From Alphaproteobacteria bacterium (GTDB lineage Bacteria > Pseudomonadota > Alphaproteobacteria > Micropepsales > Micropepsaceae), in contig CANBZE010000006.1 of assembly GCA_947373775.1 (NCBI GenBank), forward strand, positions 1 to 19,701: a DNA stretch of 19,701 bases, in the 5' to 3' direction. Position 1 is the first letter of the stretch; each line of letters begins with the position of its first letter. Below are positions 3,636 to 19,492 of this stretch, piece after piece. A model generated the notes under the pieces. The model did not search any database. It was not told the DNA's origin and saw only the letters and a list, made by a program, of their open reading frames with translations. A program made the translations under genes and the position numbers.

Positions 3636-4070
3636 TCAGAAGTGCTCGCCCTGGCGAAAGGGCCCATGCCGGGTTGCTGCCCCCACCAGATAGGCGGTGG
3701 ACCAGCCGATCAGCAGGAAGCCATTGATGCCCTCCAGCGCGGTCAGCAACCGCCATGCCGGGTCAACGTGTATTTCGCCATAGCCGACTGTCGAGAACAT
3801 GGCGGTGGAAAGATACAGCGCGTCCGAGAAGGTCCTGGTGGCGCCAAGCAGGTCATAGGCGACTGCCCAGCTCCAGACCTCAAGCGTGAGGATGCCCAGG
3901 ATGCCCAGCACCGTGCCGGTCATCACCATGGTCCGCCCCACGTCATGGTTTTGAAATCCAAGCCAGCGTGCCAGCGGCGGTGTCGTAGCTCCGATCAGGA
4001 TGAGCCCCACGGTATGGATCAGAACCGTAAGTGCGACCAACCCGGAGCCGGCGGCAAGATCATGCAACAT
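3636..4070 (-). CDS. Small potassium-channel-like pore protein
   Basis: 144 residues. Hydrophobic segments lie at about 10-30, 47-71 and 108-131, with a pore loop between the last two carrying TVGYGE (94-99), close to the K+ selectivity filter TVGYGD. This fits the Ion_trans_2 pore-domain family of two-helix channels, with one extra N-terminal helix and no cytoplasmic RCK/TrkA_N gating domain. The last filter-motif residue is Glu instead of the common Asp, a tolerated variant in some bacterial channels. The ATG at 4070 follows a FixK-type box by only 34 bp (box at 4104-4117), so the gene is probably switched on at low oxygen. No good ribosome-binding site precedes the ATG, and the expected transcription start falls almost on it, so a leaderless mRNA is possible. 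K+ selectivity is inferred, not shown. Confidence 0.82.
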   Translation of the reverse strand: MLHDLAAGSGLVALTVLIHTVGLILIGATTPPLARWLGFQNHDVGRTMVMTGTVLGILGILTLEVWSWAVAYDLLGATRTFSDALYLSTAMFSTVGYGEIHVDPAWRLLTALEGINGFLLIGWSTAYLVGAATRHGPFRQGEHF

Positions 4071-7190: not shown

Positions 7191-7796
7191 CTACCCGGCC
7201 GAAATCACCATCCGCACCAGCTCCGACAGGCTCGACGCGCCCATCTTGGTCATCACATTGGCCCGATGCACTTCGATCGTGCGCGGGCTGATGCCCAGGT
7301 CATAAGCGATGGTCTTGTTGGGATACCCCGCCAAAAGGCCGTCAAGCACTTCCTTCTCCCGAACGGTGAGAATGGCCAGGCGCTTGTGAACTTCGGTCGT
7401 TTCCCGGCCCGGACCGCCTGTTTTTCTTCCATGCTCAAAGGCCACCTCAATCGCCCCCAGGAGTACCTCGTCAGAAAAGGGCTTTTCGATGAAATCCACC
7501 GCGCCTTCTTTCATTGCTGCTACCGCCAGAGCTACATCGGCATGCCCTGTCATGACCACCACCGGCAGGTGAGGCCCCTGCCGGTTGAGGCGCCGCAGCA
7601 GTTCCAGCCCATCAATTCCAGGCATGCGCACATCGCTGACGACACATCCGGACTGCAAATCGTCGCATTTTTCCAGAAAGGCCGAGGCAGAATCATAGAC
7701 TTTCACCGCCATGCCAGCGGTTCCCAGCAGAAAGGCGACCGCACGGCGCACGTCCTCGTCGTCGTCGATGAGGTGAACAACTCCGCTAACGGGCAT
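7191..7796 (-). CDS. fixJ: Response regulator FixJ
   Basis: 201 residues. The receiver domain (about 5-120) has the acidic pocket D11/D12, phospho-acceptor D55 in [10 protein letters not shown]83 and K105 in EKPF. The C-terminal LuxR/GerE helix-turn-helix (about 138-197) shows [20 protein letters not shown] and [18 protein letters not shown]. Domain order, length and close link to FixL identify FixJ, the response regulator that turns on fixK at low oxygen. The ATG at 7796 lies inside the 3' end of fixL (11-bp overlap), so the two are co-transcribed and coupled. A sequence resembling a FixJ site is found upstream of fixK at 10806-10821. Confidence 0.95.
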
Positions 7797-9654
7797 CGCT
7801 GTGCGCCTCCCCTTCGGCAGTCTTCAGAGTCAGAAAAAAGATCGTGCCGCCTTGCGGGTTGGGTTCGGTCCAAAGCCGCCCGCCATGAGCTTCCACAATG
7901 GTGCGTGAAATGGATAGTCCCACGCCCATGCCCTGCGGCTTGGTGGTCATGAAAGGCTGGAAGAGCTTCTCCGCGATTGCCGGCGCGATTCCCGGGCCCG
8001 TATCCCGGACCGCGATTTCCACGGTCTCGGAATCGATCTGCCGGGTGGCAATCTCCAGTTTGCGCCTGTCAACCTCCTGCAACGCCTCCAGCGCATTGCG
8101 CATGAGGTTGAGGATCACTTGCTGGATCTGGATGCGGTCAGCCATGACCAGGCCGATGGCCGTATCGAAGTCAAAGGAGACGTGGACGCCGGTCTCCTTC
8201 GCCCCGACCAGGGCCAAGGCACTGGCTTCTTCGATCAGCTTGCGCAGGTCCTCGGGCCGGCGGTCGCTTTCACCCCGCGCCACGAATTCTCGCAAGCGCT
8301 TGATGATCTGGCTGGCCCGCAAGGTCTGCTCGGCGGCACTGTCCATAGCGCCGCGTGCCATAACGATGTCCGAAGGTTTGCCACTGTCCAACAGCCGGCG
8401 CGCACCGTTGAGATAGCTGGTCATGGCCGTCAGGGGCTGGTTGAGCTCATGGGCGAGGGTGGAGGCCATTTCGCCCAACGCGGTAAAGCGGGACATGAAA
8501 ATCAGTTCAGACTGCAGTTCCTGCAGCCGCTGCTGGGTCTGTTGCCGCTCGGTCAAATCCCGCACAAAGCCAGTGAAAAAACGCCGGTCGCCGGAGCGCA
8601 TCTCCCCAACGGCGAGCTCCATGGGAAATGTCGAACCGTCCTTGCGCTGTCCCACAACCAGCCGACCCACCCCGATGATCCGCTTTTCGCCGGTGGCCAT
8701 ATAGCGTGCCAAATAGGAGTCGTGATGGCCGCTATAGGGCTGCGGCATCAGCATGCTCACATTCTTGCCAATCGCCTCGCTCGCCGAATAGCCGAACAAC
8801 TTCTCGGCGGTGGCGCTGAAAGACCGCATGACGCCCCGCGTGTCGATCACCACCATCGCATCAGGGACCGTATCCAGAACGGACTGCAGATGCGCCTCCC
8901 GTTCGCGCAGGGCCGCCTGCGCGGAACGCGCAGCGGTGATGTCGCGCGCCACCTTGGAGGCGCCGATCAGCATGCCTTCGTCATCCCACACGGGCGAGAC
9001 CGTGACCGAAACATCAATAATGCTGCCATTCTTGTGGCGCCGGCGGGTCTCGAAATGGTCCACCTTTTCGCCCGCACGGATCCTGTCCAGGATTTTCTGC
9101 TCTTCGTCTTCCAGGCCAGGCGGCAGAAGCCGTGAGATGGACTGGCCAATCATTTCCTCGGCGCTGTAACCGAAGATGTTTTGGGCGGCCAAGTTCCAGT
9201 CGGTAACAATTCCGTCGATAGTCTTCCCGACAATGGCATCGTCAGACGAAGACACGATGGCGGCCAGACGCGTATTGGTCAGCTGTGCCGAGCGGCGCTG
9301 GCCAATGTCCAGGACGATGCCGTCCGCAACAAGCCGGTTCGACGCTACTTGCCCCCGCATCCGCCGCCACTTGCCGTCGGGAAAGATGCGAAAATCCAGA
9401 TCGTGCGGCCGGCCGGCATACAGGCAATCTCGCAACGATCGTTCCATCGCCTTGCGGTCATGGGGGTGGACAAGCGCCAGGAAAGCCTCCCGCGGCAGTT
9501 CGGGCGCAGGCGCACCAAGAAGCTTCGCGGCGCGGGGGGAAAGGATCACGCGCTCCTGCGCCAGATGCCAACGCCATGTCCCCGCTCCCGCCGCGTCCAA
9601 TGCGGCGTCGGTTTCTGGCGGGCTCAGGCCGGAAATATCGGGGGCGACCGTCAT
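7786..9654 (-). CDS. fixL: Oxygen-sensing histidine kinase FixL with three PAS domains
   Basis: 622 residues from the ATG at 9654. PAS regions are at about 20-120, 127-242 and 252-370. The third is the FixL haem domain: [11 protein letters not shown] places H311 where B. japonicum FixL has its proximal haem histidine H200, and IIGVGR places R331 where it has the O2-sensing R220; [10 protein letters not shown] ends the domain. The kinase core follows: H402 in [12 protein letters not shown]-box N516/N520 in [11 protein letters not shown]1 DTGPGIAP (551-558), and MGVGLS (576-581). Binding of O2 to haem should inhibit the kinase; without O2 it phosphorylates FixJ. No transmembrane helices are visible, so it is a soluble FixL. 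The N-terminal PAS is extra compared with the two-PAS B. japonicum protein. A FixK box lies 43 bp upstream, shared with the divergent alcohol dehydrogenase. Confidence 0.94.
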
Positions 9655-9675
9655 GGCCGATACCCTAGCCGCGCG

Positions 9676-9691
9676 CTGGCGTAATCGCCAG
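9676..9691. repeat. Perfect 16-bp dyad beside the fixL/adh FixK box
   Basis: CTGGCG-TAAT-CGCCAG is a perfect inverted repeat with 6-bp arms and a 4-bp spacer, five bases from the FixK box at 9697-9710 on the fixL side. It may be the operator of a second regulator or a small hairpin in the fixL leader. I do not recognise the motif. Confidence 0.4.
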
Positions 9692-9696
9692 AAGTC

Positions 9697-9710
9697 TTGA
9701 TCGGCATCAA
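9697..9710. promoter_or_regulatory. Perfect FixK/FNR box between fixL and alcohol dehydrogenase
   Basis: TTGAT-CGGC-ATCAA matches the FixK/FNR consensus in both halves. Centred at 9703.5, it predicts a class II start near 9745 for the alcohol dehydrogenase, and CATTAT (9732-9737, four matches to TATAAT) is correctly placed as its -10. On the fixL side the corresponding -10 position is GC-rich, so activation of adh is favoured; repression or weaker control of fixL is also possible. Confidence 0.82.
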
Positions 9711-9766
9711 GGCGATGGCTGCGCCACTTGCCATTATCCGATTCAATCAAAAGCGGAATTTGGCCC

Positions 9767-10804
9767 ATGAAAGCCCTGGTTTATCGCGGTCCCGGCTTCA
9801 AAGCGCTGGAGGATCGCCCAAAGCCCATCCTGCAGACAGCAGGCGATGCCATCGTCAAAATCACAAAAACCACGATTTGCGGCACCGATCTCCACATCCT
9901 GAAGGGCGACGTTCCCACTTGCGTGCCCGGCCGCATTCTCGGCCATGAGGGCGTCGGCATCGTGGACAGCATCGGCGCCGGCTGCACGCGGTTCAGGCCC
10001 GGTGACCGGGTTCTGATCTCCTGCATCTCGTCTTGCGGGAAGTGCGATTATTGCCACCGCGGCATGTATTCGCATTGCGAGAGCGGCGGCTGGATCTTGG
10101 GCAACACCATCGACGGCACACAGGCGGAATATGTCCGCATCCCCCATGCCGATACCAGCCTTTACCGCCTGCCGGAAGGCGCGGATGAAGAAGCACTGGT
10201 CATGCTCAGCGACATCCTGCCGACCGGCTATGAGTGCGGCGTACTGAACGGCAAGATCGCGCCGGGCGCTACCGTCGCAATCGTTGGCGCCGGGCCCATC
10301 GGCCTGGCAACCCTGCTGACCGCGCAGTTTTACTCGCCGTCCCGGACAATCCTGATCGACCTGGACGACAACCGGTTGGAGGTCGCCCGGCGCTTCGGCG
10401 CCACCGACACCATCAACAGCGGCACACAAGACACCGTGGCGCAGGTCATGGCCCTGACCGGCGGGGTCGGCGTGGACACTGTGGTCGAAGCGGTCGGCGT
10501 TCCGGCGACATTCGAACTTTGCCAGTCGCTGGTGGCGCCGGGCGGTACCATCGCCAATGTCGGCGTCCATGGCTGCAAGGCGGATTTTCACCTGGAACTG
10601 CTTTGGTCGCGGAATATCACCATTACCACCCGCCTGGTGGATACGGCCGCCACCGCCATGCTGCTGCGTGCAATCACGGCCAAAAGCCTGGATCCGGCGC
10701 CCCTGATAACCCACCGCTATACCCTGGACCGTATCCTGGATGCCTATGACACCTTCGGCCGGGCAGCCGAAACCCGGGCTTTGAAAGTCATTATCAGTCC
10801 CTGA
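9767..10804 (+). CDS. Zinc-dependent alcohol dehydrogenase (MDR family)
   Basis: 345 residues from the ATG at 9767. Catalytic zinc ligands are C38 in TICGTDLH and H60/E61 in GHEGVG. The structural zinc cysteines C90, C93, C96 and C104 follow in the C-x2-C-x2-C-x7-C pattern. The Rossmann fold shows GAGPIG (174-179), and acidic D198 in ILIDLDD favours NAD+ over NADP+. The enzyme oxidises an alcohol or reduces an aldehyde reversibly; the substrate is unknown. At low oxygen, reoxidation of NADH by aldehyde reduction would be a sensible role. It sits between fixL and fixK, is preceded by a perfect FixK box with a well-placed -10, and ends just before the FixJ-like site upstream of fixK. The upstream ribosome-binding site is weak (AGCGGA). 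An ATG at 9728 would add 13 residues but overlaps the predicted -10. Confidence 0.92.
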
Positions 10805-10893: not shown

Positions 10894-11577
10894 ATGACGG
10901 TACAGATGGCGATCAGCACACGAGTTTCCGCGGCCGTCGAGGCCCGCACGAACTGGATGGCCGAACAGGACCTCCAGGAGCCCCTCCGCACTGCCGGGAC
11001 CGTTATCCATATCGCCCAGGGGCGCGAGATTTTCGCGGAGGGCGACGACACCGATGTGTTCTACAAGGTGGTTTCGGGAGTTGTCCGGGCCTGCAAATTT
11101 CTCAACGATGGCCGGCGCCAGATCGAAGCCTTCCACGTTGCCGGTGACCTGTTCGGGCTCGAACTGGATGAAGAGCGGCTGATGTCGGCCGAGGCGGTCA
11201 GCGACTGCATACTGGTTTGCTATCGCCGCCGCATTGTTGAAACGCTGGCCCAGAAGGACCAGACCATCAGCCGCCAGCTGTTCCAGTACGCCATGCAGAA
11301 CATGGTGTCGGCACAAGCCCACTGCCTGCTGCTGGGTCGCCGGGGCGCCGCCGAAAAGGTTGCCGCTTTCCTGCTTGGCTGGGCCAAGCAGTCGGCGAAC
11401 AAGCGGGTTCTCCATCTCGCCATGACCCGCCAGGACATTGCCGATTACCTGGGCCTGACCATCGAAACCGTCTCGCGCAGCCTGACCCAGTTGGAGCGCG
11501 ACAAGGTTATCGCCCTGCCCAGCACCCGCGAAGTGAAAATCCTCAACAGCGACGTACTGGAAGATCTGGCCGCCTGA
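10894..11577 (+). CDS. fixK: Crp/Fnr-family transcription regulator FixK
   Basis: 227 residues. The ATG follows CAGGAGACAGCG, a strong ribosome-binding site. Residues about 33-125 are a cyclic-nucleotide-type sensor barrel (GREIFAEGD, FYKVVSGVVR), then the long dimer helix, then a Crp-type helix-turn-helix (about 152-222) with TRQDIADYLGLTIETVSRSL. The recognition helix ETVSR (191-195) matches FNR's ETISR, whose Glu, Ser and Arg read TTGAT half-sites. There is no N-terminal cysteine cluster, so it is not a [4Fe-4S] FNR; control should be through fixK transcription by FixJ. Four TTGAT-type boxes in this window are likely targets, as is the cbb3 operon whose promoter lies beyond the right edge. 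No FixK box precedes fixK itself, so I see no direct autoregulation. Confidence 0.93.
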   Translation: MTVQMAISTRVSAAVEARTNWMAEQDLQEPLRTAGTVIHIAQGREIFAEGDDTDVFYKVVSGVVRACKFLNDGRRQIEAFHVAGDLFGLELDEERLMSAEAVSDCILVCYRRRIVETLAQKDQTISRQLFQYAMQNMVSAQAHCLLLGRRGAAEKVAAFLLGWAKQSANKRVLHLAMTRQDIADYLGLTIETVSRSLTQLERDKVIALPSTREVKILNSDVLEDLAA

Positions 11578-11609
11578 CCCCGCCCCCCAGCCCAAGGTGA
11601 GCCCGATAC

Positions 11610-11634
11610 GTCCCCGGCCCCATGGGCCGGGGAC
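11610..11634. terminator. Strong hairpin after fixK, no U-tract
   Basis: GTCCCCGGCCC-CAT-GGGCCGGGGAC forms a perfect 11-bp, very GC-rich stem with a 3-nt loop, 33 bp after the fixK stop and 9 bp before the next FixK box. No run of T follows (ACACCCCC), so it is not a classic intrinsic terminator. It may still stop or pause transcription and keep fixK separate from the microprotein operon. Confidence 0.6.
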
Positions 11635-11643
11635 ACCCCCGGC

Positions 11644-11657
11644 TTGATCGACATCAA
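11644..11657 (+). promoter_or_regulatory. Perfect FixK/FNR box before the microprotein operon
   Basis: TTGAT-CGAC-ATCAA matches the FixK/FNR consensus in both halves. It lies 50 bp before the ATG at 11708. A class II start would fall near 11692, but no good -10 is visible at 11680-11685, so start position or promoter strength is uncertain. Downstream genes run to 14127 with gaps of 6 bp or less, or overlaps. Confidence 0.82.
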
Positions 11658-11707
11658 CGCGCACGACTGAGCCATGTCCCAACCTGCACCAGACAAAGGA
11701 GAGCCAA

Positions 11708-11827
11708 ATGCCCATTCATGATCTTGAAGTTGTCATCTTTATCGTTTGTGCCTTTTCTCTGTTCGGCGGCATCCTGGGTTGGGCGTCCTGGGACGAATCC
11801 CGCAGGGCGCGCAGGGCCCGGAAGTGA
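11708..11827 (+). CDS. 39-residue single-pass membrane microprotein
   Basis: The ATG follows AAAGGAGAGCCAA, a near-ideal ribosome-binding site, 50 bp after a perfect FixK box. The 39-residue product begins MPIHDLEVV, has one hydrophobic helix at about 8-27 and ends in a basic tail, ESRRARRARK. By the positive-inside rule the C-terminus faces the cytoplasm. I do not recognise a family. Size and shape resemble the accessory microproteins of terminal oxidases (CydX, CcoM, CcoQ) but I see no diagnostic motif. Its stop overlaps the next gene's GTG by 4 bp (GTGA), so the two are coupled. Coding is supported by the ribosome-binding site, the coupling and the membrane-protein composition. Confidence 0.72.
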   Translation: MPIHDLEVVIFIVCAFSLFGGILGWASWDESRRARRARK

Positions 11828-12024
11828 CCGGCAGGCGGCGAGCACCGAAGCCGGGCCTGCGGCACATACTTGCGGTTCTGGCTGGTCTGGTCGGCTTTGC
11901 CGTGGTGTACAGGTACAGCGGCGACGCCGATCTTCTGATCGCAGTCAGCAGCGGCCTGGCGGCCAGCGCCGTTTCCTATCTTGCCGCAAACATCTCCATC
12001 GCGATGTATAAAATCCGGAGCTAG
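11824..12024 (+). CDS. 66-residue two-helix membrane microprotein
   Basis: Starts at a GTG overlapping the previous stop by 4 bp. The N-terminus is strongly basic (TGRRRAPKPGLRH), followed by a hydrophobic helix at about 13-30, a short acidic loop (SGDAD) and a second helix at about 37-61, with a basic end (YKIRS). Both ends should be cytoplasmic. I do not recognise the family. It ends one base before the GTG of the nitroreductase, whose ribosome-binding site (CGGAG) lies within its last codons. Confidence 0.68.
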   Translation: MTGRRRAPKPGLRHILAVLAGLVGFAVVYRYSGDADLLIAVSSGLAASAVSYLAANISIAMYKIRS

Positions 12025-12025
12025 C

Positions 12026-12649
12026 GTGGATATCCGCACAGCCATTCGAAGACGCCGTGCGGTCAGGGATTTTACCCGGGAGCCGGTGACGTCATCCGCG
12101 CTGCGCGAACTGATCTCGGCAGCCAGCTGGGCTCCCAGCGCGATGAACGAGCAACCCTGGCATTTCACGGTCATCACCGATGCCGCAATGCTGGACGAGA
12201 TTTCGGCGCGATCCAAGGAATGGATGTTGAAGGGCATCTCCGCGATGCCGCGGCCCGGCCATTTTCAGGATCTTTTGTCCGATCCCGAATTCCAGATTTT
12301 CTACCAGGCCCCCGTGCTGATCGTTCTCTCCGCTTTGGGTAATGGGCAATGGAGCGCGGAAGATTGCGCCCTGGCGGCGCAGAACCTGATGCTGGCGGCG
12401 CTGGATCAGGATTTGGGCACCTGCTGGATCGGATTTGCCCAAGGCTGGCTCAATACCGAGGAAGGCCACGATCTGTTGGCGCTGCCAAGGCCCAGCCGTG
12501 TGGTCGCTCCGATCATTGTCGGACATCCCAAGGCCCTGCCGCCCGATGTATCGCGCAAGGCGCCGTTGATCACCTGGATCGGCACCGTCGCGCCTTCGTT
12601 TGACGAGGTTCCGGAACGGGCAATTCACCACGCACTTTCCCACCCCTAG
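12026..12649 (+). CDS. Nitroreductase-family FMN oxidoreductase
   Basis: 207 residues from the GTG at 12026, one base after the previous stop, with CGGAG upstream. The N-terminus IRRRRAVRDF and APSAMNEQPWHF (36-47) are the FMN-phosphate and flavin segments of the nitroreductase fold; GTCWIGFAQGW is the usual second conserved block. These homodimeric FMN enzymes use NAD(P)H to reduce nitroaromatics, quinones or flavins; natural substrates are often unknown. No membrane segment is visible, so it is cytoplasmic, flanked on both sides by membrane microproteins in one FixK-box-headed operon. That context favours a role in low-oxygen redox balance over general detoxification, but this is inference. 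Confidence 0.9.
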   Translation: MDIRTAIRRRRAVRDFTREPVTSSALRELISAASWAPSAMNEQPWHFTVITDAAMLDEISARSKEWMLKGISAMPRPGHFQDLLSDPEFQIFYQAPVLIVLSALGNGQWSAEDCALAAQNLMLAALDQDLGTCWIGFAQGWLNTEEGHDLLALPRPSRVVAPIIVGHPKALPPDVSRKAPLITWIGTVAPSFDEVPERAIHHALSHP

Positions 12650-12655
12650 GACGTC

Positions 12656-12757
12656 ATGAAAAGCGATCTGGCCCTGCTGGTCTTTGCCATTGTCGCCATC
12701 CTGGTGGCAGGTGCCGCTGTCCATGGCGGACGCTGGAAATCCGGCAAAGACACTTGA
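12656..12757 (+). CDS. 33-residue single-pass membrane microprotein
   Basis: The ATG lies 6 bp after the nitroreductase stop, with AGGA overlapping that stop. The 33-residue product has one hydrophobic helix at about 5-23 and a basic tail, GGRWKSGKDT, so the C-terminus should be cytoplasmic. I do not recognise a family. Its last four bases (TTGA) overlap a TTG start of the next small ORF. A membrane-type composition and tight packing support coding, but at this length that is not proof. Confidence 0.6.
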   Translation: MKSDLALLVFAIVAILVAGAAVHGGRWKSGKDT

Positions 12758-12885
12758 GACCGCCCCTCCGCAATATTGGCACCACGGAAAACTTCACCGC
12801 ATTCCTGTGTGTACTTGTGGTCCTGACCGGGGCCATACTGGTTTGGATGTACATTGCTGGCCTTATCCCTCCTGTGCACCCCTGA
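12754..12885 (+). CDS. 43-residue single-pass membrane microprotein (TTG start)
   Basis: The only upstream start I can find in this frame is the TTG at 12754, which overlaps the previous stop by 4 bp (TTGA), a coupling arrangement. The product begins with a basic stretch (RPPLR), then NIGTTENF, a hydrophobic helix at about 16-37 and a short tail ending PPVHP. It fills the gap to the ATG at 12892 almost exactly (6 bp left). I do not recognise a family. A TTG start and short length lower confidence; an alternative is a non-coding linker. Confidence 0.5.
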   Translation: MRPPLRNIGTTENFTAFLCVLVVLTGAILVWMYIAGLIPPVHP

Positions 12886-12891
12886 ACTCGG

Positions 12892-14127
12892 ATGGGCGAC
12901 GTCGAAATTCTTCAGAGGGCGTGTCTCGCTGCGGCGATCGGACTGCTGATCGGCATCGAACGTGGCTGGCAGACCCGTCAGGCCCCCGACGGCGCGCGCG
13001 TCGCCGGCATCCGCACCTTTACCCTCATCGGCGGGTTGGGCGGCATCAGCGGCCTGCTGCCGGGCGACATCACACTTGGCCTTTGCCTGGTAGCCTTCGC
13101 CCTCCCCTTCGGTCTCTTTGAGTGGCGCCGGGCCCGCGCGAGCAGGAATTTTTCTGCTACCGGCTTGATCGCCGGCATTCTGACCTTTGCCCTGGGCGCC
13201 TATGCGGCGCGAGGCAGCATGGTTGTGGCGGCCGCGGGCGGCGTTGTCGTGGCCGCCGTCCTTGCCGAACGCCGGGTCATGCATACCTTCTTACGCCATC
13301 TGAAATGGACCGAACTGCGGGCCGCGTTGGTGTTGCTGACCATGACGGTCGTGCTGCTGCCCGCTCTGCCGGACCGAAACGTGGATCCGTGGAATGCGCT
13401 GAACCCACATCAGATCTGGTTGATGACGGTTCTGGTGGGCGTGGTCTGCTACGCGGGCTACATCGCGGTGCGGATCGCCGGTGAGCGCCGTGGCTTGCTG
13501 TTTGCCGCGATCGCGGGCGGCCTCGCCACCTCGACCACCGTAACCTGGACATTTGCGCGGCTGGTCAAACGCAGTCCCGCAGCGCTTGCAGAAGTGATGG
13601 CCGCCATCCTCGCAGCCTGGATCGTTTCGCTGCTGCGCATGACCGTGATTGCGGTGGTGATTGCCCCCGTCCTTCTGGTTCCTCTTGGCGCTCCAATTCT
13701 CGCCGCATCAGGATTGCTGCTGGTCCCGGCCGCCCTGGCCTATCGCGCCGCCGGGAAGGCCGGAGCCCAGGGGCTGACCCTGCAGGACCCTTTTGAGCTG
13801 CCTCTCCTGCTGCGATTCACCGGCTTGCTGGCCGCCATCATGCTGCTGGCGAAACTGTTCTCGTCGGGCCGGGCTGGCCTGTTTGCGCTGGGCGGGGTCT
13901 CCGGCCTGCTGGACGTGGATCCCATAACGCTTTCCATGGCCCGGTTGGCCGGCACGGGAATCACGCCGATGCTTGCCGCCTCCACCATACTGATCGCCGC
14001 CGCCGCCAATGCGCTGGCGAAATCAGTCCTGGCGGTCGCCTTCGGCGGCCCACGGCTGGGGATTGCCCTGAGCGGCTCGGCACTCCTGGCGTTTGGTGCG
14101 GGAGCGGCCGCCTATTTCAGCGCCTGA
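12892..14127 (+). CDS. MgtC/SapB-type membrane protein with DUF4010 region
   Basis: 411 residues, very hydrophobic, with about 11-12 predicted membrane helices. The N-terminus shows MgtC signatures: GLLIGIERGWQ (17-27) and GIRTFTLIGGLGG. The rest matches the DUF4010 membrane region that follows MgtC domains in this two-part family. The function is unknown; MgtC proteins are linked to growth at low Mg2+ and to membrane-potential or F-ATPase control in pathogens, but the DUF4010 fusions are not well studied. It is the last gene of the operon headed by the FixK box at 11644-11657, six bases after the 43-residue ORF and without a strong ribosome-binding site, so it probably relies on coupling. 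The next gene is convergent, 28 bp away; I see no clear terminator between them. Confidence 0.87.
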   Translation: MGDVEILQRACLAAAIGLLIGIERGWQTRQAPDGARVAGIRTFTLIGGLGGISGLLPGDITLGLCLVAFALPFGLFEWRRARASRNFSATGLIAGILTFALGAYAARGSMVVAAAGGVVVAAVLAERRVMHTFLRHLKWTELRAALVLLTMTVVLLPALPDRNVDPWNALNPHQIWLMTVLVGVVCYAGYIAVRIAGERRGLLFAAIAGGLATSTTVTWTFARLVKRSPAALAEVMAAILAAWIVSLLRMTVIAVVIAPVLLVPLGAPILAASGLLLVPAALAYRAAGKAGAQGLTLQDPFELPLLLRFTGLLAAIMLLAKLFSSGRAGLFALGGVSGLLDVDPITLSMARLAGTGITPMLAASTILIAAAANALAKSVLAVAFGGPRLGIALSGSALLAFGAGAAAYFSA

Positions 14128-14155
14128 AAAGTCGCGCCTCGCCCGGCCTGTGAGA

Positions 14156-14305
14156 TCATGGCGCAGGCCCGTCCGCGTCATCATCCATCAAAATCCGTAC
14201 GGCGTCGCCGTCAGGATCGTCATACTGGCCGCTGGCAAGCGCCCATAATAGAACTGCGAGGCTGAAAAGCCCCACCAGCAACGCAGAATATATGATCAAC
14301 GCCAA
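14156..14305 (-). CDS. ccoS: cbb3 oxidase maturation protein CcoS
   Basis: 49 residues, starting at a TTG (14305) two bases after the ccoI stop; a second TTG at 14299 is possible. One hydrophobic helix (about 3-24) is followed by ASGQYDDPDGDAVRIL, the conserved CcoS segment (S-G-Q-[FY]-D-D-[LP]-x-G), and an acidic tail. CcoS is needed to insert haem or copper cofactors into CcoN. As last gene of ccoGHIS its position is as expected. Confidence 0.88.
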   Translation of the reverse strand: MALIIYSALLVGLFSLAVLLWALASGQYDDPDGDAVRILMDDDADGPAP

Positions 14306-14307
14306 GC

Positions 14308-16488
14308 TTACCGCGCTTTCCCGGCAGCAAGCCGAAGCGCATTGAGCGTTACCAGCATGGACGATCCCGCCATGGTGGATGCGGCGATCAGGGGCGTGAC
14401 AAAACCCAGCGCCGCCATGGGAATCGCCGTGAGATTGTAGAGAGCAGCCATGGCGAAGTTCTGCAGCACCAGCCGCCGCGCCTTGCGCGCCACGTCATGA
14501 GCTTCCAGGATGGGCATTAGATCGTTGCCGCGCAGCACCATGTCGGAGGCGCGCTGGCTGATGTCGGTGGCGGTACCCGGCGCGATGGAAACATGCGCAA
14601 GCGCCATGGCCGCGGCGTCATTGATGCCGTCGCCCACCATCAGGACGCGGTATCCCTGAGCGGACAGGGATTGCAGCCGTGCCGCCTTTTGCTGCGGCGT
14701 GAAGCCGGCATACCAGTCGGTGATGCCGACCTGGGCGGCAATACCGGATACGATCGGAGCATTGTCGCCTGAGAGCATCTCCACGCGGATGTTGCGTTGC
14801 TGCAAGCCGCGGATCAGCGCAGCGGCATCGGGACGCAATTCGTCCTGGAGTAGAAATCCGATGGGTGCCTGTGCGCCCCGGCGATACCAGAGTTGATGCG
14901 TATCCGCCTCGGCGCCGCACCATGCGGCGCTGCCAAGGCGCTCGATGTCATTGCCGCTGCCGCACTCCAGCCCTGAGCCCGCGATCTCGCGCACATCCGG
15001 AGCCACGGGTCCGACGCCGGCGGCGGCGGCAATGGCATGTGCCAGCGGATGGCGGCTGGCCCGCGCAATCCGGGCCGCACGCTCCAGCACATCCGGCGGC
15101 ACATCCTGCGCGTTCTGGAGCACCGGCGATCCTACGGTCAACGTTCCTGTCTTGTCGAAGATCGCCATGTCGATTTCGGCCAATCGCTCAAGCGCATCGC
15201 CGGACTTGACGAAGACGCCGCGGTTGAACAGCCGTTCGGTGGCGACAATTTGAACCGCCGGGACTGCCAAGCCCAAAGCGCAGGGGCAGGTAATGATCAG
15301 CACCGTTATCGCACTGGTGATGGCCTGCGCCAGACTCGCGCCCGCCATCAGCCATCCGGCGCAAGCCAGCAGCGACAGGGAAAAAACTACCGGCACATAG
15401 GCGCGGGCGGCGCGGTCCGCCAGGCGGACATACAGGCTCTTGGCCTGCTGGCCGGCCTCGAGCAATCGCGCCAGATCGGCCACGAGGGAATTTTCGACTC
15501 CCGCCGTTGCGCGCAAAATGACAGCCGCCCCCGTCACAATCGCGCCAGCCGGCACAGCGGCGCCCGATTGCAGCATCTGGGGAAGGCTTTCGCCCGTGAC
15601 CAACGACATGTCGCACTCGGTCGCATGATCTTGGAGCACGCCATTGACGGGCACGCGATCGCCGCTGGCAAGCAGCAGGCGGTCGCCCGCGCCCACCTCG
15701 CGCGCCGCCACCGTCCGGACGGTACCATCTGCAGACATGCGGCGCACCAGGAGCGATTGTAGCGCCAGAAGATGGCGTGCCGCATCCCGCGCGCGATCGC
15801 GCAGGCGGTAATCCAGATAGCGCCCGATCAGGAGCAGAAAGGCCAGCATCGTAGCGGCGTCGAAATAGGTGTGCATGCCGCCCTGGGCGGTCTGGTACAG
15901 GCTCAGCCCCAGCGACAGCAGCAGCGCCAGGCTTATCGGCAAGTCCATATTGGCGCTGCGCGCCATGATTCCGCGCCAGGCCGCAAGGAAAAATGGCTGG
16001 CCCGCATAAAGCGTGGCCGGAACGGCCACCACACCCGCCAGCCAGAAGAATGTCTGGCGCATGCCCGCGCCCAGGTCCGCGCCGCCGTACCAGACAGAAT
16101 CCGTCAGGCCCATCACGAACACCGTGGCGAAACCCGAAACCGCCAGGCAGCGCAGCAGCAGTCGTCCCTCCGCCTTTTCTCCGCTCAAGGTTTCCGCCGC
16201 CTCGAAAGGCCGCGCCTCATATCCCAAATCACGCACCCGCCGCAGGATCGCTTGCGGCGCAACCTTGCGGCTGAGTACCGCAAGCTTGCCGGTGGACAGG
16301 TTCAGCCGCGCATTTTCGACGCCGGGAATGGCGCCAACGCCCTGCTCGATCTTGGCGATGCAATTGGCGCAGCGCGCGCCTTTGACTGCCACGTCGAAGG
16401 CGTCCGCGCCGGAGGCGTCATGCCGCACCAGCGCCGAAAGATCGTCGGCAAATTCATCGTTGCTGTGCGACAGGATCACGGCACCCAT
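14308..16488 (-). CDS. ccoI: Copper-exporting P1B-type ATPase CcoI/FixI
   Basis: 726 residues. An N-terminal heavy-metal domain has CANC (C40/C43). Membrane helices follow, with CPC (401-403) in TCPCALG as the Cu+ path, phosphorylation D445 in DKTGTLT, TGES in the actuator domain and GDGINDAAAMA in the hinge. Context and size identify CcoI (FixI), which moves copper to the periplasmic side for cbb3 oxidase assembly rather than for detoxification. The ATG at 16488 lies within ccoH (13-bp overlap). Some strings are shared with CopA; the gene order settles the call. Confidence 0.95.
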   Translation of the reverse strand: MGAVILSHSNDEFADDLSALVRHDASGADAFDVAVKGARCANCIAKIEQGVGAIPGVENARLNLSTGKLAVLSRKVAPQAILRRVRDLGYEARPFEAAETLSGEKAEGRLLLRCLAVSGFATVFVMGLTDSVWYGGADLGAGMRQTFFWLAGVVAVPATLYAGQPFFLAAWRGIMARSANMDLPISLALLLSLGLSLYQTAQGGMHTYFDAATMLAFLLLIGRYLDYRLRDRARDAARHLLALQSLLVRRMSADGTVRTVAAREVGAGDRLLLASGDRVPVNGVLQDHATECDMSLVTGESLPQMLQSGAAVPAGAIVTGAAVILRATAGVENSLVADLARLLEAGQQAKSLYVRLADRAARAYVPVVFSLSLLACAGWLMAGASLAQAITSAITVLIITCPCALGLAVPAVQIVATERLFNRGVFVKSGDALERLAEIDMAIFDKTGTLTVGSPVLQNAQDVPPDVLERAARIARASRHPLAHAIAAAAGVGPVAPDVREIAGSGLECGSGNDIERLGSAAWCGAEADTHQLWYRRGAQAPIGFLLQDELRPDAAALIRGLQQRNIRVEMLSGDNAPIVSGIAAQVGITDWYAGFTPQQKAARLQSLSAQGYRVLMVGDGINDAAAMALAHVSIAPGTATDISQRASDMVLRGNDLMPILEAHDVARKARRLVLQNFAMAALYNLTAIPMAALGFVTPLIAASTMAGSSMLVTLNALRLAAGKAR

Positions 16489-18490: not shown

Positions 18491-19328
18491 AGACCGCCAC
18501 GGCCTTGATCTCTTCGGGCGACAGGCGCCCCGACCAGGTCGGCATCACGCCGCCATTCCCGTTCCAGATCTGGTCATGAATGTCGTCGCGGGCGGACCCA
18601 TATTCCCATTCATTGTCCGTGAGGTTGGGGGCGCCGAAGCTGCGATTGCCCTTGCCCTCCGATCCATGGCAAGCGGCACAGTTATCCGCGAAAAACGGCG
18701 TTGCGCGGCGCACGGCACGCGCGTCGGCAGCCCGCCCCGACAGGTGCACGACATACTCGGTCAGATCGTCCACCTGCGCCGGTTTGATGATGCCATCCCG
18801 GCCGAATGCGGGCATCTGCGACTGGCGCGTGTCCGCACTGGTGGAACGGACGCCCACTGAAATGGTATGCTGAATATCCGCCAGCTTGCCACCCCACAGC
18901 CAAACATCGTCATTCAGATTGGGATAGCCGCGGGCGCCCTGCCCGCCGGCGCCGTGGCACGGGGCGCAGTTGTCGCCGAAGGCGGCTTTGCCTTCGGCCA
19001 TGGCGAATTGCAGCAAGTCGGGATTCTTCTGGATATCCGCCAGCGAAGCGCTGGCCAGCGATTGTTCCCGGCCCGCGCGGGCCGACTTCAGCGCTGCAAC
19101 ATCCGCGGTGACTTCGTCGCGCTGGGAATGATTCCAGAGTCCGTGTGTGTACGAGGTGATGCCGGGCCAGGCCGGATAAACTAACCAGTAGCCCACCGCC
19201 CACACGATGGTGGCGTAGAGAATGTACAGCCACCAGCGCGGCATGGGCGTGTCCAGCTCCTTGATTCCGTCCCACTCATGGCCCGTCGTCTGGGTGCCGG
19301 AAACGTCGTCAACTTCTTTCTCAGACAT
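18462..19328 (-). CDS. ccoP: cbb3 oxidase dihaem cytochrome c subunit CcoP/FixP
   Basis: 288 residues from the ATG at 19328. One membrane helix (about 33-51), then two periplasmic cytochrome c domains with CAPCH (121-125) and CAACH (217-221), and likely axial Met ligands M172 (QMPAFG) and M262 (VMPTW). It passes electrons to CcoO. The ATG shares one base with the ccoQ stop (TGATG). An in-frame upstream start at 19397 would run into ccoQ and is rejected. Confidence 0.95.
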   Translation of the reverse strand: MSEKEVDDVSGTQTTGHEWDGIKELDTPMPRWWLYILYATIVWAVGYWLVYPAWPGITSYTHGLWNHSQRDEVTADVAALKSARAGREQSLASASLADIQKNPDLLQFAMAEGKAAFGDNCAPCHGAGGQGARGYPNLNDDVWLWGGKLADIQHTISVGVRSTSADTRQSQMPAFGRDGIIKPAQVDDLTEYVVHLSGRAADARAVRRATPFFADNCAACHGSEGKGNRSFGAPNLTDNEWEYGSARDDIHDQIWNGNGGVMPTWSGRLSPEEIKAVAVYVHNLGGGE

Positions 19329-19492
19329 CAGACATCCTCGTCCCGGAAGGGAATCAGTGCCGCCTGCTCGAAGCGCGGGCGATTTTTCGGCCACCAAGCA
19401 TAGGCAAAGGCCGCAATGAACATCGCTACGAAATAGACGGCGCCCCAGCTTTGGGCGAAGGCCAGCACGTCTTCATAAGCCCAGCGTTCCAT
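19328..19492 (-). CDS. ccoQ: cbb3 oxidase small subunit CcoQ/FixQ
   Basis: 54 residues with one membrane helix at about 17-35 and AYAWWPKNRPRFEQA, the usual CcoQ tail after the helix. Starts two bases after the ccoO stop. CcoQ stabilises the CcoN-CcoO-CcoP complex. Confidence 0.9.
   Translation of the reverse strand: MERWAYEDVLAFAQSWGAVYFVAMFIAAFAYAWWPKNRPRFEQAALIPFRDEDV

Follow-up and report, generated by a model that had tools for sequence, protein, structure and literature searches.

What does a perfect FixK/FNR box govern when it is followed by six closely packed genes, four of which encode membrane microproteins, and do these genes specify one molecular machine or several separable parts? 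The question arises in a window of 19,701 nucleotides (contig CANBZE010000006.1 of assembly GCA_947373775.1, from an alphaproteobacterium of the Micropepsaceae), which is the whole stretch of DNA that was analyzed, and it concerns positions 11644–14127, where the box precedes open reading frames (ORFs) for the microproteins s39 and s66, a nitroreductase, the microproteins s33 and s43, and an MgtC-DUF4010 membrane protein. The weightiest finding here is a family of FixK-box microproteins with s39 at its head: from sequence, it is well supported that s39 belongs to an undescribed family of apparently low-oxygen-switched membrane microproteins found in many related genomes. For the locus as a whole, we see about an even chance that it is a modular FixLJ-FixK low-oxygen operon in which s39 and s66 serve as respiratory accessories, s43 and s33 act on the MgtC-DUF4010 protein, and the nitroreductase has been recruited.

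The s39 gene (11708–11827, plus strand, ATG start) encodes 39 residues, with one helix by hydropathy. Database searching at E ≤ 0.01 gave 143 relatives, 120 of which were listed, and we built family alignments with 7, 24, and 33 members. Most members are 29–43 residues long with a single helix, and their alignment runs without gaps from the initiator codon; almost all sequences retain M1, F19, and L23. The 7-member profile gave 15 matches in 385 genomes of the class at E ≤ 0.001, and the 24-member profile matched 39 of the 385 at E ≤ 0.01 and 31 at E ≤ 0.001, while 349 phylum genomes searched in the same way yielded 21 matches at E ≤ 0.01; these class and phylum counts are lower bounds, with at most 19–21 candidates scored per genome. 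Remote matches are short ORFs with a Met start in the same register, several with a FixK box close upstream; of 13 remote matches, L068, L072, L074 (a near-duplicate of L070), and L076 were omitted from the alignment. Family sources include Rhizomicrobium sp. and Desertibaculum subflavum. None of the 24 members scored over the cut-off of any Pfam family, the window's s39 had no NCBIfam match, and the names carried by database relatives of s39 and s66 are of the hypothetical-protein or membrane-protein type. Literature searches, with subscription journals outside their scope, returned no title or abstract opening naming the family, and plasmid records held no match to two s39-family members or to the nitroreductase. 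The FixK/FNR regulons of Alphaproteobacteria are well mapped, yet genes of 29–40 codons are easily missed, and a conserved s39 gene whose promoter layout stays constant across many genomes provides a direct and testable entry point to low-oxygen respiration.

This promoter layout recurs well beyond the window. Of 30 fetched class-sample s39 loci, 21 show a box with no more than one mismatch within 200 bp upstream, and in 19 of these it lies 50–65 nt before the s39 match, against a background of 5.2% of 6000 random 200-mers from the same loci; for loci outside the profile-building set, the box is found in 11 of 17 (binomial p = 6.5e-11). The nine boxless loci comprise some poor matches (L106) and some seemingly true members (L085, L090, L091, L099). 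In the phylum search, such a box is present at 10 of 20 new loci; the remaining 10 are mostly segments of longer reading frames. Aligning promoters on the box revealed an A at +37 (17 of 24) and a T at +41 (18 of 24); of 8 alignable phylum loci, 5 keep the T and 3 the A, with ATAATG or ATATAT in four of the 8. These positions correspond to -11 and -7 of a class II FNR promoter.

Within the window, the box is a perfect TTGAT-N4-ATCAA match, TTGATCGACATCAA (11644–11657, no strand assigned). The box-aligned A/T pattern and the spacing of class II FNR promoters place a predicted -10 element, CAACCT, at 11680–11685 (plus strand) and a predicted transcription start at about 11692 (plus strand), ahead of a ribosome-binding-like AAAGGAG at 11695–11701 (plus strand). 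Two perfect boxes occur in the window (the second at 9697–9710) vs. a mean of 0.01 expected, and 0 of 200 dinucleotide shuffles contained two. A pattern scan of 11560–14320 found no sigma-70 promoter, and the two terminator-like sites in that interval are what shuffles also give. With its box at class II distance from the predicted -10, the operon fits a FixK/FNR class II regulon, and regulation of this kind is well supported; we propose that FixLJ-FixK would switch on all six ORFs at low oxygen via a class II FNR-type promoter, with FixK presumed to bind the box.

Following the 50-nt gap between box and s39, the remaining ORFs succeed one another with a 4-nt overlap, 1 nt, 6 nt, a 4-nt overlap, and 6 nt, all on the plus strand: s66 (11824–12024, GTG start, 66 residues, two helices by hydropathy), a nitroreductase-family flavoprotein (12026–12649, GTG, 207 residues), s33 (12656–12757, ATG, 33 residues), s43 (12754–12885, TTG, 43 residues; one helix each for s33 and s43), and the MgtC-DUF4010 protein (12892–14127, ATG, 411 residues). 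The coordinates of the perfect box and the six tightly spaced plus-strand ORFs given by the original prediction check out. Tight spacing together with the conserved overlap argues for co-transcription, and by its anatomy and predicted promoter this is a genuine low-oxygen operon.

To what extent is the operon kept as a unit? A DUF4010 scan gave 48 loci, and an s66 search in 96 genomes from the same order as G001 gave 10 matches, 6 to this operon and 4 to another locus type; the operon is represented by seven loci, namely the window, L001, L002/L051, L049 (with L003 as its likely continuation), L056, L006, and L055. All seven contain s39 and s66, always overlapping by 4 nt (GTGA, TTGA, or ATGA), which suggests that s39, as the operon version of the FixK/FNR-box microprotein family, would be co-translated with s66. 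A fixK-type gene lies upstream of s39 in all seven, so the conservation beside fixK that had been proposed as a check is borne out, and a perfect box stands 50–53 nt before s39 in four (the window, L001, L002, L049). L001, the closest relative, keeps the order fixL, dehydrogenase, fixK, all six ORFs, cco, with one additional divergent ORF after fixK, and L002 and L049 retain most of the set. As for the cco genes, also part of the proposed check, three of the seven loci (the window, L001, L051) have them on the contig that was fetched, and the fetched stretches of the other four are shorter or without cco genes.

Beyond the s39-s66 pair, the parts of the operon are modular. The nitroreductase is next to s66 in five of the seven loci and not in L006 and L055, whose genomes hold nitroreductase relatives elsewhere that are only 46% and 49% identical. 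MgtC-DUF4010 ends six of the seven operons; L056 is without it, and a search of the L056 genome found no match. Among 41 more distant DUF4010 loci (L008–L048, mostly Betaproteobacteria), no relative of s39, s66, the nitroreductase, s33, or s43 was found at E ≤ 1e-3. Conversely, 61 s39-family locus records outside the operon lineage (~3 kb each; 41 from the class sample, some of them duplicates, and 20 from the phylum) contained no s66, nitroreductase, or DUF4010 relative, and at eight distinct non-operon loci (L064, L129, L130, L131, L132, L134, L145, L147) the 3 kb fetched include a FixK-like gene.

The micro-ORFs are real genes. Comparisons of s39, s66, s33, and s43 with their relatives, using the window as reference, gave pN/pS of 0.34–0.70 in 16 of 16 cases (rough values, given such short ORFs and a degree of synonymous change that is often near saturation), and the nitroreductase gave 0.29 and 0.42. 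The four membrane microproteins first recognized in the letters of this stretch all have relatives at the amino-acid level, and the lack of such conservation, named at the outset as a refutation, did not occur. For s66, 43 database relatives were found at E ≤ 0.01, and s66 has a shared loop motif. Distant s66-like two-helix ORFs also occur at L058 (1465–1665), L059 (~1500–1660), L060 (~1500–1660), and L061 (1447–1662, minus strand), with the same YTGDAD-type loop (FTGDSD in L061); by eye, they adjoin histidine-degradation genes opposite a sulfotransferase-like ORF, and as another locus type they were left out of the operon count.

How, then, should the six products be understood together? The original prediction was that they may make up a single membrane redox complex for low oxygen, in which the nitroreductase would be the flavin enzyme, and both the tight arrangement of coupled ORFs and the complete or nearly complete sets in L001, L002, and L049 would fit that idea. 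Because the nitroreductase is absent from two of seven operons and MgtC-DUF4010 from one, one obligate complex is argued against, and s39 moreover turns up at loci that have no s66, nitroreductase, or DUF4010 alongside, including in genomes where ccoO and ccoN were not found; the single-complex idea is weakened by this modularity, and we now consider it quite improbable. A different possibility is that the micro-ORFs work chiefly in cis, by translational coupling or by targeting the transcript to the membrane, with little specific protein function. The start/stop overlaps of s39-s66 and s33-s43 suit such coupling, s39-family genes occur both with and without cbb3 or bd oxidase, and the s43 sequence is weakly conserved; yet the gapless s39 register with its three retained residues and the shared loop motif in s66 speak against this, and s39 relatives lacking operon partners alongside have nothing to couple to. 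We regard a predominantly cis role as unlikely, and favor six products that would form a modular accessory set.

As to what s39 may act on, ccoO was found in 22 of the 31 s39-family genomes, compared with 156 of all 385 sampled (Fisher p = 0.0004), and cydA in 18 of the 31, three of these via weak partial matches. Another reading is that s39 is a diverged CcoQ/FixQ, making the operon head a copy of a cbb3 subunit. PF05545 (FixQ) was indeed matched by 3 of 24 s39 members at E 0.017–0.1, and profile comparison of s39 with CcoQ gave 41% probability (30% with a larger alignment), where 30 column-shuffled CcoQ controls reached at most 3.2%; however, the PF05545 matches are far under the cut-off (13–15.5 vs. 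29 bits), the window has its own ccoQ (19328–19492, by eye), a share of s39-family genomes is without ccoO and ccoN (counted below), and reversed CcoQ outscored forward CcoQ against s39 (66% vs. 30%). A CcoQ origin was rejected on this last result, despite the margin over column shuffles, and strikes us as extremely improbable. The CcoQ set came from 20 fetched loci, seven of which gave no pick, and L114 (an out-of-frame pick) was included in the 41% comparison and excluded from the larger-alignment one. A relation to CcoM was likewise rejected, as the s39 profile misses the CcoM chain 5djq_N at E ≤ 10 with that chain present in the library.

A link between s39 and high-affinity oxidases is favored, not proved, and s39 is unlikely to be a strict cbb3 subunit. 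In the modular reading, s39 would most likely insert in the cytoplasmic membrane and bind a low-oxygen respiratory enzyme, with a terminal oxidase as first candidate, whose assembly or activity it would tune in the way that CydY/YnhF acts on bd oxidase and CcoM on cbb3. Excerpts of PMC6853902 describe CydY/YnhF as the fourth subunit of the Escherichia coli bd-I oxidase, with low-oxygen expression. It is a single-helix microprotein made at low oxygen from a gene outside the oxidase operon, as is predicted for s39; the likeness is one of description, not sequence, and the FixK box and operon context are peculiar to the s39 family. CcoM, according to excerpts of PMC10433244, is a 36-aa subunit of the Pseudomonas stutzeri cbb3 oxidase linked to low oxygen; it shares with s39 the single helix and this link, but the s39 family also occurs in genomes without ccoO and ccoN and shows no profile match to it. 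In our judgment the balance is level on whether s39 represents an undescribed, widespread family of FixK/FNR-switched membrane microproteins, often encoded close to fixK and missed in annotation, that belongs permanently to the alphaproteobacterial low-oxygen response and adjusts a respiratory membrane enzyme, and that in one lineage was built with the co-translated two-helix s66 into an operon with MgtC-DUF4010 and its own microprotein partner. Such a family would extend the picture of lineage-specific microprotein helpers on respiratory enzymes.

That second microprotein partner is suggested by gene position. The MgtC-DUF4010 protein scores over both Pfam cut-offs (PF13194, 155.6 bits vs. 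30; PF02308, 39.1 bits vs. 31.4); its structure model is all-helical (pLDDT 85.3) and matched no PDB fold at E ≤ 1e-3, and no function was taken from it. In all six operons having MgtC-DUF4010, a single-helix ORF is the last before it, with a 4-nt overlap in L001, 5–9 nt in the window, L002, L049, and L055, and 43 nt in L006. ORFs resembling s43 are found in six loci at this position, with one helix and 15–38% identity to the window, and s33 relatives in four (the window, L001, L049, and, only 28% identical, L006), and HGGR comes after a helix in three of these four sequences. We propose that s43, and s33 with it, most likely act on MgtC-DUF4010 as MgtR does on MgtC. MgtR, the nearest precedent, is a 30-aa peptide which, according to excerpts of PMC6813294, binds to MgtC of Salmonella and favors breakdown of that protein by FtsH, and it resembles s43 and s33 as a single-helix peptide from the same operon as an MgtC-domain protein; the likeness is one of gene position and single helix alone, and the partner here, unlike that of MgtR, carries a DUF4010 domain. 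Across 40 distant DUF4010 loci that include the gene start, a short helix ORF directly upstream was seen only as weak candidates (L010, L035), and a full-text literature search on the MgtC-DUF4010 class returned a single paper, whose title points to a different topic; a microprotein tied to this protein class is a lead on it. In L001 (5751–5859), the s33 frame is offset from the expected ATG behind a G run, by assembly error or real change. L005, where s39, s66, and the nitroreductase are all missing, has an s43-like ORF (1958–2107) 2 nt upstream of DUF4010 and, further off, a perfect FixK box (945–958) before a cytochrome c4 gene (by eye).

The nitroreductase would be a soluble redox enzyme that belongs to the hypoxia regulon and was recruited into the operon. 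It scores over the cut-off of PF00881 (115.3 vs. 23.5 bits) and under that of BluB (TIGR02476, 60.3 vs. 150 bits). In Bradyrhizobium diazoefficiens, portions of PMC9104804 and PMC6515984 list the nitroreductase gene blr4652 with a FixK2 site and microoxic induction, and the 14-mer given for that site in the portion of PMC9104804 is identical to the operon box. Each nitroreductase gene stands under the same FixK-type 14-mer, a likeness drawn from published lists, not sequence comparison, and the blr4652 operon differs in comprising a nitroreductase, dnaJ, and a hypothetical gene. Of the two nitroreductase relatives that lie elsewhere in genomes whose operon lacks the enzyme, the one in genome G003 is found, by eye, among genes for universal stress protein, Hsp20, CBS-domain, and host attachment proteins, similar to the company listed around FixK2-controlled blr4652 in those same portions.

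Several observations weigh against the reading of a FixK-controlled modular operon with respiratory and MgtC-directed microproteins. No recognizable box precedes s39 in L006, L055, or L056, where s39 lies downstream of fixK in the same orientation and the two may be on a common transcript. Since FixK regulons and cbb3 go together, enrichment of cbb3 is expected for any FixK target, and ccoO and ccoN were both not found in 9 of the 31 s39-family genomes; 6 of the 31 were without ccoO, ccoN, and cydA, in assemblies that may be incomplete. As to s43, its identity among loci is low and its start in L001 is ambiguous, the last small ORF of L006 is s33-like and lies at the long distance given above, and L004 and L007 have DUF4010 without a single-helix ORF before it.

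The surroundings of the operon agree with the low-oxygen setting that had been anticipated, with fixL, fixJ, fixK, and cco genes in one window (by eye). Upstream lie fixL and fixJ (7191–9768, minus strand, named by eye), a zinc-dependent alcohol dehydrogenase gene starting at 9767 and divergent from fixL, and a gene for a FixK-type CRP/FNR regulator (10894–11577, plus strand), whose best NCBIfam match is FixK at 214.9 bits, below the cut-off of 300. The second perfect box sits between fixL and the dehydrogenase gene, which is probably a FixK target too. Convergent with the operon are ccoS (NCBIfam) and a P-type ATPase gene (ccoI by position), as well as ccoH, ccoG, ccoP, and ccoQ (by eye). The interval from fixK to the box varies, by eye, with a divergent TPR protein in L001 (3720–4745) and L002 (3424–4695) and a PfkB-type kinase in L049 (1673–2719). 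In L051 (1181–7716, genome G002), the ORFs between the cco genes and the operon form what appears by eye to be a hypoxia island, with a small ion channel (FixK box at 1334), cytochrome c4, PRPP synthase, thymidine phosphorylase, a metallo-beta-lactamase-fold protein, and a BON-domain protein; a 144-aa membrane ORF of the window (3636–4070, minus strand) resembles the small ion-channel ORF of this island (by eye).

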